NCBI GenBank assembly: GCA_019750475.1
Contig: JAIEOO010000041.1
Location: 1-47,445 of the forward strand
Length of the DNA: 47,445 nucleotides
Reading direction: 5' to 3'
From: Acetobacteraceae bacterium
Lineage (GTDB): Bacteria; Pseudomonadota; Alphaproteobacteria; Acetobacterales; Acetobacteraceae
A program made the translations under genes and the position numbers. This document shows positions 4,582 through 7,002 of the stretch, one piece after another (position 1 is the stretch's first letter; each line of letters starts with the position of its first letter). The notes beneath the pieces were generated by a model. It was not told where the DNA came from, did not search any database, and saw only the letters and a program-made list of their open reading frames with translations.

Positions 4582-5877
4582 GTGTCGAAGATCGTCGCCT
4601 TCCTGCCCGCCAAGGGCACCAGCGAGCGCACGCCCAACAAGAATGTCGCCCTGCTCGACGGCAAGCCGTTGGTGCTGCGCATGGCCGAGCGCCTGCTGCG
4701 CTGCCCCTCCATCACCGAAGTCTGGCTCGACACGGAGAGCGAGACGGTGTTCCGGCTCTGCCAGCACCTGCCGGTCCGCTGGCTGCGCCGCGACCCGGCG
4801 CTGGCGAGCAACGCGACCGATGGGCACGCCCTCTTCGCCAACGAGGTCGCGCAGGTCGAGGCCGACATCTACGTCCAGGCGCTCTGCACCAGCCCCTTTC
4901 TGAAGCCGGACACGATCGAGGCCGCGATCGCCGCCGTGCGCGACGGGCCGCATGACAGCTGCGTCGCCATCCGGCGCGAGAAGCTCTACCGCTGGGAGGA
5001 GGGCGCGCCGGCCTATGGCCGCGGCCGCATCCCGAACAGCGTGGACCTGCCGGCCAACGACATCGAGGCGATGAGCCTCTACGTGGTCGAGGGCCACGCG
5101 GCGCGGCGCGCCGGCCGGCGCTTCGGAGACCGGCCCTTCCTCATGCCCATCGCGCCGATCGAGGCGGTGGACGTGAACACGCCGGAGGAGCTCGAACTGG
5201 CGCACCTCATCGCCGCCGGGCAGCGGGAGAGGGAGCGCGTGGCGCTGCGCAGCCTGCCGGCGCTTCTGTCCTCCTCCATGCTGTCGGACACGCTCGACGA
5301 GATGAGCATTCCCGGCGTGGCCCGGGGGCTGAAGCCCAATCGCTCGCGGGCGCGGATCGCGGGCCGCGCCAACACCCTCGCCCTGCGGCCGCTCGAGCCG
5401 GGGGAGGACTTCCACGGCATCTACGACGCGCTCCGCTCCTACGACACGGTGGTGCCGGGCGACGTGATCCTGGTGCAGAACAAGCTGCCGGACTTCGCCT
5501 ATTTCGGCGACCTCAACGCCCGGATCGCCATGCGGCAGGGGGCGGTCGGCGCCGTGGTGGACGGCGCGACGCGGGATTTCAACAATGTCCGCGCCCTGGA
5601 TTTCCCGGTCTTCGCCCGCGGCCTCTCGGCGGCCGACGTGCGCGGCCGCGCCACGGTCGAGAGCATGGGGCGGCCGATCACCATCGGCGGCGTGCCCGCC
5701 GCGCCGGGGGACTTCGTGTTCGCCGATGCCGATGGCGTCTGCATCGTCCCGCAGGCGCGGGAGGCCGAGGTGCTGCGGCGCTGCCTCGCCCGCAACGACA
5801 ACGAGGGCCGCATCGCCCACGACATCGCCCAGGGCGATGATCTGCGGCGCATCCTCGCCGCGCGCGGGGAGTTCTGA
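4582..5877 (+). CDS. cytidylyltransferase (CMP-sialate synthetase-like) fused to RraA/aldolase-like domain
   Basis: A 431-residue two-domain protein. Residues 1-~215 resemble acylneuraminate cytidylyltransferases: the nucleotide loop LPAKGTSERTPNKN (8-21) corresponds to the family's LxPARxGSKRxPxKN, with QALCTSPFLKPDTI in the CTP-site region and DVNTPEEL (197-204) at the end of the domain. Residues ~228-400 resemble the RraA / HMG-CHA class II pyruvate aldolase family: YFGDLNARIA, then VVDGATRD. D310 and R331-D332 fit the D-x20-R-D metal/pyruvate-binding signature of active aldolases. The GTG start gives the family's N-terminus directly; the GGGAGAAG upstream is rather distant. A convergent gene 12 bp downstream encodes a sialyltransferase-like protein. 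Both domains are confident; the combined reaction is not known. Confidence 0.87.
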   Translation: MSKIVAFLPAKGTSERTPNKNVALLDGKPLVLRMAERLLRCPSITEVWLDTESETVFRLCQHLPVRWLRRDPALASNATDGHALFANEVAQVEADIYVQALCTSPFLKPDTIEAAIAAVRDGPHDSCVAIRREKLYRWEEGAPAYGRGRIPNSVDLPANDIEAMSLYVVEGHAARRAGRRFGDRPFLMPIAPIEAVDVNTPEELELAHLIAAGQRERERVALRSLPALLSSSMLSDTLDEMSIPGVARGLKPNRSRARIAGRANTLALRPLEPGEDFHGIYDALRSYDTVVPGDVILVQNKLPDFAYFGDLNARIAMRQGAVGAVVDGATRDFNNVRALDFPVFARGLSAADVRGRATVESMGRPITIGGVPAAPGDFVFADADGVCIVPQAREAEVLRRCLARNDNEGRIAHDIAQGDDLRRILAARGEF

Positions 5878-5889
5878 CGGCGCCGCGCG

Positions 5890-7002
5890 TCAGGCGGAGG
5901 CGTCCGCCGGGAAGCCGCCGAGGCTCCAGCCCGGATGCACGGCCGCGAAGGCGGCCGCTTGGGGCAGGGGAAAGGCGGCCGTCGCCGGCGCGCCCTCCGG
6001 CAGGGCGCAGAGCGCGAGCCGCTCGGGGTCCCGGCCCGGCGGGAGATGCAGCGCGAACCCCGCCGCGCCGCTGCCGAGGCCGAGCTGCGCCGTGTCCCAG
6101 CGCGGCTGGTCCGCCGCCGCTTCCGCGACCAGCCTGTCCCCGGACAGCGCGAGGATGCGAAGCCGGGCATGGGGGTGGCGGGGATCGGCCGCCCAGCCGC
6201 GGATGACGTCGCCCGCCACGGTCTCGACGCAGCCGAGCGGCTGGAGCGAGGCGACGAGCGCCCGCTGGGCCGCGATCTCGGCCGCGGGCTTCGCCGGGCC
6301 GGGATCGAGGCCGGGCCCGGGCCGCATCACGCGCAGTTCCGTGTTCGGGTGGTGGCCCAGCAACGCGCCCAGCACCGCGCGCTCATAGGCGGTGGCGTGG
6401 GCGTCGCGATGAAACCCCGCCGCCCGGACCTCGGGCGGGAAGAACCGGGCGAGCCAGGGCGGGTAGCGCAGCGCCGTGGCGGCCGGCGTGTGGCCCAGGA
6501 AATCCATGCCGACGATGCGGATGCGCCGGAAGCCGAGCCGCAGCGCGAGATGGATGGCCCGCAGCCCGGTCCGCGGCCAGAACGCCTCCAACCCGGGCTG
6601 CCGGGGCTGCGGCAGCTCCCCGTGGGGTGGCCGCTGCGTGACCGCGAAGGGCAGCCGCGGCACGGGCGCGTCCTGGAAGAGCCGGCGGAGCCCGGAACCG
6701 ATGCCCAGCGCGCCGTCGAGGCCCGCCAGGTCGTCCGCGACGAGGCCGACCGCGTAGTCGCCGCGCCGGATCGCCTGGCGGAGCAGCAGGGCGAGCTTGG
6801 CGTCAATCGTGCCGGCGCAGGCGACGTCCACCCGCCGGCCGAAGGGCCGCGTCTCCTCCAGGAAGAAGTAGTTGATCCGGAAGATCACCGGGTCGTCGGC
6901 CAGCCAGGCCGGATCGGCGGCGGCGGCAGAGGGGCCGTTGCCGATGATCAGCGCCGGTCGCCGCGTATCGGGCGCGGGCGCGTCCCGCGGCCAGCCGATC
7001 AT
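5890..7002 (-). CDS. GT42-like (Cst-type) sialyltransferase-fold protein with C-terminal GWxxDP domain
   Basis: A 370-residue protein. LIIGNGPS (18-25) matches the nucleotide-binding start of Campylobacter Cst-I/Cst-II sialyltransferases. FRINYFFLEETRPFG (41-55) parallels their FRCNQFYFEDKYYLG. The block at 145-170 ending IRIVGMDFLG parallels the TIYLCGIDFY strand. H202-x3-Y206 aligns with the H-x3-Y that supplies the Cst-II catalytic His. These comparisons are from memory of the family. Residues ~262-345 contain VIRGWAADP and GAAGFALHLP, the beta-rich GWxxDP domain often appended to alphaproteobacterial glycosyltransferases. It starts 14 bp after hemF on the same strand. Likely role: transfer of a CMP-activated sugar acid to a surface glycan (inferred). 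Confidence 0.72.
   Translation of the reverse strand: MIGWPRDAPAPDTRRPALIIGNGPSAAAADPAWLADDPVIFRINYFFLEETRPFGRRVDVACAGTIDAKLALLLRQAIRRGDYAVGLVADDLAGLDGALGIGSGLRRLFQDAPVPRLPFAVTQRPPHGELPQPRQPGLEAFWPRTGLRAIHLALRLGFRRIRIVGMDFLGHTPAATALRYPPWLARFFPPEVRAAGFHRDAHATAYERAVLGALLGHHPNTELRVMRPGPGLDPGPAKPAAEIAAQRALVASLQPLGCVETVAGDVIRGWAADPRHPHARLRILALSGDRLVAEAAADQPRWDTAQLGLGSGAAGFALHLPPGRDPERLALCALPEGAPATAAFPLPQAAAFAAVHPGWSLGGFPADASA

Follow-up and report, generated by a model that had tools for sequence, protein, structure and literature searches.

A conserved fusion of a CMP-ulosonate-synthetase-like domain with an RraA-like domain in scattered bacteria and viral contigs

Introduction

What might a single protein do with a cytidylyltransferase at one end and an RraA-like, aldolase-type domain at the other? 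The question is raised by a gene at 4582..5877 on the forward strand of a 47,445-nucleotide stretch of an Acetobacteraceae genome (contig JAIEOO010000041.1, positions 1 to 47,445, assembly GCA_019750475.1), referred to as a whole as the window. The gene encodes 431 amino acids from a GTG start and joins a domain resembling synthetases of cytidine monophosphate (CMP)-activated ulosonic acids to an RraA/aldolase-like domain. A preliminary description, made from the sequence alone, recognised this combination, suggested that the aldolase half might make or destroy a keto-acid sugar that the other half activates, and knew of no described system of the same architecture; in agreement with the last point, among the papers listed by our search of the open-licence PMC literature none combines RraA with a CMP-sugar synthetase. 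To our knowledge, RraA-like proteins are numerous and mostly of unproven function, and we know of no biosynthetic, as opposed to catabolic, role for the fold. Both domains are of known kinds; what makes the protein interesting is their conserved coupling and its distribution in phages. Our preferred reading, to which we assign a probability of about 0.45, is that the fusion is a bifunctional CMP-ulosonate synthetase of surface-glycan biosynthesis, in which the RraA domain would act on the shared keto acid through an additional step of enolate type.

The fusion protein and its two domains

The window gene encodes a true two-domain fusion protein. Its open reading frame runs from GTG to stop at 4582-5877, and Pfam recognises CTP_transf_3 at residues 6-127 (62.7 bits against a cut-off of 22.6) and RraA-like at residues 234-388 (98.3 bits against 24.5); no NCBIfam model covers the protein above its own cut-off. 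The N-terminal domain comprises residues 1-214 (4582..5223, forward strand) and has its fold match in 9t4z, while the Pfam limits of the RraA-like domain correspond to 5281..5745 on the same strand, its fold extending on towards the C terminus with matches in 3k4i and 3noj. Both motifs singled out in the preliminary description, LPAKGTSERTPNKN at residues 8-21 and D310-x20-R331-D332, are exact. An AlphaFold2 model built from an 11-sequence alignment (mean predicted local distance difference test, pLDDT, 84.4; predicted template modelling score 0.81) places a helix between the domains at 201-227. With the window protein included, we assembled 37 intact fusions (15 bacterial, 22 viral), 30 of them distinct (15 bacterial, 15 viral), and all conservation counts refer to these 30. 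Because full-length relatives (42-58% identity where recorded) recur in several genomes and in 22 viral contigs, a join introduced by sequencing or annotation is ruled out as the source of the fusion.

By sequence, the RraA-like domain has a complete predicted Mg/pyruvyl-enolate core of the class II pyruvate aldolase type. Its model (about 218-426) matches 3k4i (Z 24.8, 195 residues aligned, 2.4 Å) and HMG/CHA aldolase 3noj (Z 22.9), and a profile alignment to 3noj puts R331 and D332 (5572..5577) and E408 (5803..5805) on R123, D124 and E199, each invariant in 30/30 fusions. In the aldolase, Arg123 stabilises the enolate, and Asp124 and Glu199 are metal ligands (PMC5065237). The preliminary description had made its proposal depend on the metal ligands of this domain; the alignment shows all of them in place. 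D310 (5509..5511), which opens the motif, is Asp in 21 fusions and Glu in nine, and N312, R318 and D352 are invariant and specific to the fusion family. The fold and the three core residues are thus common to the fusions and HMG/CHA aldolase, whereas the phosphate- or acceptor-side positions of the aldolase (N71, T145, K147 and R195) differ and are not conserved among the fusions; with the core kept and the acceptor side varied, the chemistry looks retained and the partner changed. The window protein falls under the cut-offs of both the LigK/PcmE equivalog TIGR02798 (84.6 bits against 304.5) and the RNase E regulator RraA model TIGR02998 (20.7 against 241.25). A KDO-like (3-deoxy-octulosonate-like) substrate is chemically sensible for the domain, since the FlDet dehydratase/decarboxylase, an enzyme with the RraA fold, takes a 2-keto-3-deoxy sugar acid as its substrate (PMC8563752). 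NCBIfam names and match ranges also indicate other proteins in which a sugar or keto-acid enzyme is followed by RraA, namely hexulose-6-phosphate synthase-RraA (PRK07028) and FAH-RraA (PRK12764), the N-terminal partner in each differing from that of the window fusion.

The N-terminal domain lies closest to CMP-Kdn and CMP-Neu5Ac synthetases. In the AlphaFold2 model it superposes on CMP-Kdn synthetase 9t4z with Z 27.1 (201 residues aligned, 2.0 Å), and a profile alignment to the same protein is full-length (E 1.6e-29); further fold matches are 1eyr (Z 26.9), 1qwj (25.2), 9ftc (24.4), KdsB 2y6p (22.8) and 1gqc (21.2). The CMP-Kdn, CMP-Neu5Ac and CMP-Pse synthetases (PpNeuA 9t4z, murine 1qwj, Neisseria 1eyr and Aeromonas 9ftc) share with it the fold across the whole domain and a nucleotide loop ending in K20-N21; in this loop, P9-x-K11-G12-x-S14-x-R16...K20-N21, residues P9, K11, G12, S14, R16, K20 and N21 occur in 30/30 fusions. 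The CMP-Kdo synthetases (KdsB/KpsU) belong to the same superfamily, and some carriers of the fusion have KDO-pathway neighbours, but the profile alignment to CMP-Kdo synthetase 1gq9 spans only the first 124 positions, and the window protein reaches 18.2 bits against the KdsB model TIGR00466, far under its cut-off of 155.2.

KDO genes and candidate transferases beside bacterial fusions

Gene context at some of the bacterial loci points to KDO chemistry. Among 15 such loci, kdsA is adjacent to the fusion in four (G008 and L029-L031; G and L numbers are our labels for genomes or records and for loci), kdsD in five (L025, L027 and L029-L031), and one or the other in six. The clearest arrangement is in three Sphingomonas genomes (L029-L031), where the order is kdsD-fusion-kdsA, kdsD overlaps the start of the fusion, and the operon kdsA is the sole TIGR01362 match of the genome. 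These three are the only ones without a WaaA match (PF04413) among 19 genomes, and none of them has a KdsB match over cut-off (sub-threshold matches have E of about 5e-6 to 9e-6). G008, which belongs to the same genus as the window, has its sole kdsA about 150 nt upstream of the fusion. The fusion is preceded in L025 by IspD-like, KdsC-like and KdsD genes, the KdsC-like product scoring above the KdsC cut-off and best to a KDN-9-phosphatase model, under that model's cut-off, and in L027 by a KdsD gene. Of the 14 bacterial genomes that carry the fusion, 13 have a gene for KdsA, the phosphoenolpyruvate (PEP)-dependent KDO-8-P synthase.

Two replacement schemes were considered and rejected. The fusion does not always replace KdsB, which is present over cut-off in nine of the 14 genomes; its absence from G819 and G820 may reflect incompleteness of these metagenome-assembled genomes (MAGs). 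Nor is the lack of KdsC specific evidence that the RraA domain replaces it, KdsC being under cut-off also in 5/5 tested same-genus genomes without the fusion.

Possible users of a CMP-activated acid are found at several loci. In the window, a convergent gene on the reverse strand (5890..7002, 370 amino acids) lies 13 nt from the end of the fusion and is weakly similar to alpha-2,3/2,8-sialyltransferases and MptE-like proteins, making it a candidate CMP-sugar user: all seven of its PDB matches are sialyltransferases of this kind, which we take to be CstII/GT42, at weak E values (0.03-0.08), and its MptE-like Pfam match (E 0.002) is below cut-off. In an Acidobacteria MAG (L024) the fusion adjoins a gene similar to KrkA (E 1e-13; QxxxD motif, QTPHD at 188), a GT140 retaining Kdo transferase (PMC12887879), and the locus also has an MptE-like gene above cut-off. 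An MptE/GT42-like gene lies no more than 20 nt from the fusion in L026, L027 and L028, with Pfam matches below cut-off or none. Overall, 14 of 38 loci have such a gene at a distance of 20 nt or less, a count that includes six loci from which the profile was built and several with identical proteins; 17 of the 38 have a strongly scoring MptE/GT42-like or GT29-like gene immediately next to the fusion or the split genes. A PDB sequence search of the neighbours in L029, L025, L043 and L027 gave nothing useful, and in L041 the gene after the fusion encodes a TylF-like methyltransferase.

Viral copies and a split form

The first search of viral contigs in IMG/VR returned 23 loci, comprising 22 intact fusions and one split version. 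Marker searches covered 16 of 25 viral loci, mostly the longer records, many records being fragments. In the viral loci tested, genes of gp32, UvsX, UvsY, gp45, clamp-loader and DnaB type occur in the vicinity of the fusion or of the split genes; terminase (PF03237) was detected on eight of the 16 records and was not detected on the other eight, which include G827 and G828 (L044 and L045), where PHROG matches are mostly of unknown function. A synthase of the KdsA/DAHP family (PF00793) is present on seven of the 16, one match lying near a contig end, and NeuB on two. The T4-like phage record G838 has an overlapping KdsA and KdsB-like pair (L077:13664-15092) about 12 kb from the fusion, its KdsA passing PRK05198 and falling just under TIGR01362. 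A published environmental T4-like virus genome likewise encodes a NeuA-annotated protein and KdsA (PMC5332604); an excerpt of that paper makes no mention of an RraA fusion, but the genome may be of the same kind as G838. Directly upstream of the fusion in L044 is a GT29 sialyltransferase-family gene (E 4e-12, above the Pfam cut-off).

In the split form, seen at L064:5995-7342 and L068:5310-6657, the synthetase and RraA are separate genes overlapping by 29 nt, and in L064 the separate RraA keeps R331, D332 and E408. The order in L064 is a weakly GT29-like gene, synthetase, RraA and NeuB, all overlapping; the NeuB-family gene encodes 305 amino acids, with a Pfam match ending at residue 254, and NeuB is also on the L068 record.

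No match was found at E 1e-5 among 50,697 records of isolated phages. At E 0.001, PHROGs offered no family for any protein compared, namely the window protein, two viral fusions, the products of the split genes, NeuB and an MptE-like neighbour. Foldseek comparison with viral models gave matches of cytidylyltransferase or glycosyltransferase type, and none of the 50 matches listed names the fusion architecture.

Proposed function and alternatives

In the pathway that we favour, a PEP-dependent synthase (KdsA, or NeuB in one phage family) would make a 2-keto-3-deoxy sugar acid. The RraA domain would use Mg2+ and R331 to bind this keto acid in its open-chain form, make the enolate and alter the acid, most plausibly by reversible C3-C4 aldol chemistry giving the C4-epimer or removing a wrong acid; the N-terminal domain would couple the acid to CMP, and a neighbouring transferase would then move it onto a polysaccharide, flagellin or a phage-directed glycan. 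Gene content argues for the synthase and transferase steps, the fold and nucleotide loop suggest activation by the N-terminal domain, and the intact active site is consistent with the RraA step. With a synthase usually at hand, the RraA domain probably does not build the sugar acid, and the presence of KdsA in 13 of 14 bacterial genomes favours an enolate/aldol step at C3-C4 (epimerisation or editing) over synthesis.

Several observations weigh against this reading. In the window itself no KDO-pathway gene lies near the fusion, and the kdsA and kdsB matches over cut-off in that genome sit on other contigs. One MAG with the fusion, G821, has no KdsA. Where KdsB is present, as in nine of 14 bacterial carriers, the fusion would be redundant if its product were plain CMP-KDO; the phage record G838 likewise has a KdsB-like gene beside kdsA, although under the KdsB cut-offs. 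PF00793 is lacking on nine of the 16 viral records, the match in G836 contains a stop codon, and no strong MptE/GT42-like or GT29-like gene directly adjoins the fusion or split genes in 21 of 38 loci (L057 and L061 among them). A further objection lies in the N-terminal domain. Neisseria Arg165 binds the sialate carboxylate together with Gln166 and is needed for activity, and Gln104 is a metal/sugar ligand (PMC2901514). Known CMP-ulosonate synthetases require this Arg and Gln. In the fusions, the place of the catalytic Arg of CMP-sialate, CMP-Kdn and CMP-Pse synthetases is taken by N152-S153 (5035..5040, forward strand), which is invariant in 30/30, is followed by V, K, I or T, and aligns to Arg165-Gln166; none of the 30 has an Arg at 150-156. 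The register of this alignment shifts by one residue between templates, and pLDDT is below 50 at 135-138, 142-144 and 146-154, including the Arg165-equivalent loop; hence the absence of an Arg165 equivalent rests on the sequence. The position of Neisseria Gln104, and of Gln96 in CMP-Kdo synthetase, is L101 in 30/30, and Asp98 of 1gq9 is replaced by T103. At the Asp209/Asp211 metal site D197 is kept in 30/30, and the second residue is Asn in 26 and Asp in four. With the sialate-carboxylate Arg and the metal/sugar Gln replaced, the domain forms a distinct subfamily, and it may accept something other than a free ulosonic acid held in the usual manner. The CMP-sialate synthetase of the preliminary description therefore stands as to nearest relatives in fold and sequence, and gives way as to substrate: these residues are replaced, and the neighbours point to KDO-type ulosonic acids.

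The same replacements lend themselves to a different account, in which the acceptor is some other keto-acid-derived compound, no free ulosonic acid is used, and the nearby KDO genes serve other steps. The KdsB or KdsB-like genes of G838 and of the nine bacterial carriers agree with it, but the GT29, GT42-like, MptE-like and GT140-like genes next to the fusions belong to, or are similar to, types that use CMP-ulosonates, and the three Sphingomonas genomes have no KdsB over cut-off; we hold it to be very improbable. A role in which the RraA domain supplies the N-terminal domain with its keto acid, by condensing an aldehyde sugar with pyruvate or with oxaloacetate that is decarboxylated, would lie within the known repertoire of RraA-fold class II aldolases, which perform pyruvate aldol chemistry and decarboxylate oxaloacetate (PMC5065237). 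L025 and L027, with kdsD and without kdsA adjacent, would suit such a role, as would the nine viral records without PF00793 and the 14 of 16 without a NeuB match, many of these being fragments. We nonetheless consider it decidedly improbable, and the earlier suggestion that the aldolase half makes the sugar is not supported: KdsA is encoded in nearly every bacterial carrier and adjoins the fusion in G008 and Sphingomonas, a KdsA/DAHP-family synthase is on seven of 16 viral records, and neuB follows the split pair in L064.

The RraA domain might instead be an editor or overflow valve, splitting unused or hydrolysed keto acid into pyruvate and an aldose by a retro-aldol reaction. Such a role would be consistent with the complete retro-aldol machinery predicted for it, and with the accumulation of free acid to be expected if CMP-Kdo is as unstable as described (PMC12887879). 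A degrading domain fused to an activating one would, however, compete with the pathway, and no sugar-acid catabolic gene was recognised directly adjoining the fusions when they were read by eye, with no dedicated search; we regard this as quite improbable. Unlikely, in our judgement, is a non-catalytic RraA domain, serving an ordinary CMP-ulosonate synthetase as an oligomerisation or regulatory module that senses pyruvate, a keto acid or phosphate. Mammalian CMP-sialate synthetase carries a phosphatase-like tail as a comparable module, RraA is fused to other enzymes too (PRK07028, PRK12764), and the acceptor-side positions N71, T145, K147 and R195 are not conserved; E. coli RraA itself binds and modulates the RNA degradosome (PMC5065237). 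Metal ligands and an enolate Arg that are invariant in 30/30, and kept in the split version, would be needless in a pure scaffold.

A bolder form of the bifunctional-synthetase reading, which we hold to be unlikely, is a hitherto undescribed CMP-sugar pathway in which RraA alters C3/C4 of an ulosonic acid that stems from KDO or NeuB, for example by C4-epimerisation through retro-aldol and aldol steps, and the altered pocket of the N-terminal domain activates the new acid. Distant bacteria, in their envelope or flagellin glycans, and T4-like phages carrying the module would then have the resulting CMP-sugar in common. If true, this would be the first biosynthetic role for the RraA fold, as far as we know, and a change made to the sugar by the RraA domain would reveal a novel activated sugar acid. 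Through its strict fusion to a CMP-sugar synthetase fold, in an operon with the KDO synthase of bacteria that gave no WaaA match, one branch of RraA is linked to a substrate class open to direct assay. Furthermore, T4-like phages that carry the fusion, some with a KdsA-family gene of their own, offer a concrete set of enzymes with which to study the rewriting of surface or virion glycans by phages.

Distribution and phylogeny

The distribution of the fusion is sparse. Within the genus of the window it is found in two of 20 genomes (G008 and G015), and eight further loci on genome contigs come from the Acidobacteria MAG (58% identity), Paludibacteraceae and Bacteroidales MAGs, an Alphaproteobacteria MAG, Saezia sanguinis and the three Sphingomonas. 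Sampled searches at E 1e-60 detected it in 4/395 genomes of the order and 2/398 of the phylum, the window being counted in both, and in 2/395 of the phylum of G820, with G820 counted; these searches added two further same-family genomes, one genome in the phylum and one in the phylum of G820. Of 72,556 plasmid records, 721 gave matches, none with a single stretch that spans 80% of the query.

The window copy is nearest to that of the Acidobacteria MAG (57-58% identity) and shares 47-49% with the two same-genus copies, which fits horizontal transfer. In the C-domain tree, which 20 of the 30 distinct fusions entered, the 20 fused RraA rows group together in one clade (support 95/97), apart from the split RraA and from eight stand-alone RraA rows (L003, L011, L015, L017 and L020-L023); a further ten of the 18 stand-alone rows (L002, L007-L010, L012-L014, L018 and L019) were in the wrong frame, two of them with stops, and formed an artificial deep group that was not counted. 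Two viral lineages lie inside the fused clade, a T4-like group beside Sphingomonas and G008/G015/G108/G353, and L044 beside G451. The deepest forks of the N-domain tree are unresolved, so it gives no support for a single origin of that domain; the window pairs with L024 in the C-domain trees and not in the N-domain tree.

Other features of the loci

The remaining window neighbours of the fusion, encoding a TctC receptor, coproporphyrinogen oxidase and cytochrome b, are apparently unrelated to it. In the window's genus, none of the eight genomes tested (G000, G003, G004, G008, G011, G013, G015 and G016) has a KdsC match (TIGR01670) that reaches the cut-off, although KdsB and WaaA are present, so some other KDO-8-P phosphatase probably acts there. 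The Sphingomonas operon also includes a 394-amino-acid protein (L029:7814-8998) whose gene overlaps the start of kdsD; it has no Pfam, NCBIfam or PDB sequence match and is a candidate glycosyltransferase. In G1078 (L079:6948-11286) a flagellin gene lies 2.3 kb from the fusion, which adjoins an unclassified 617-amino-acid protein, an arrangement that suggests a role in flagellin glycosylation.

Viral contigs carry additional genes of note. The 160-kb contig of L044 has a SET-domain gene directly after the fusion (L044:7291-7713; PF00856, E 6.7e-11), and a 256-kb contig encodes a carbamoyltransferase (L078:3-1328, reverse strand; PF02543/PF16861) near a KdsA-family gene. Finally, IMGVR_UViG_3300031519_000139 encodes a RuBisCO large-chain-like protein (L046:10796-11983, forward strand; PF00016, E 2.1e-36) on the same contig as the fusion and a DnaB-like helicase gene.

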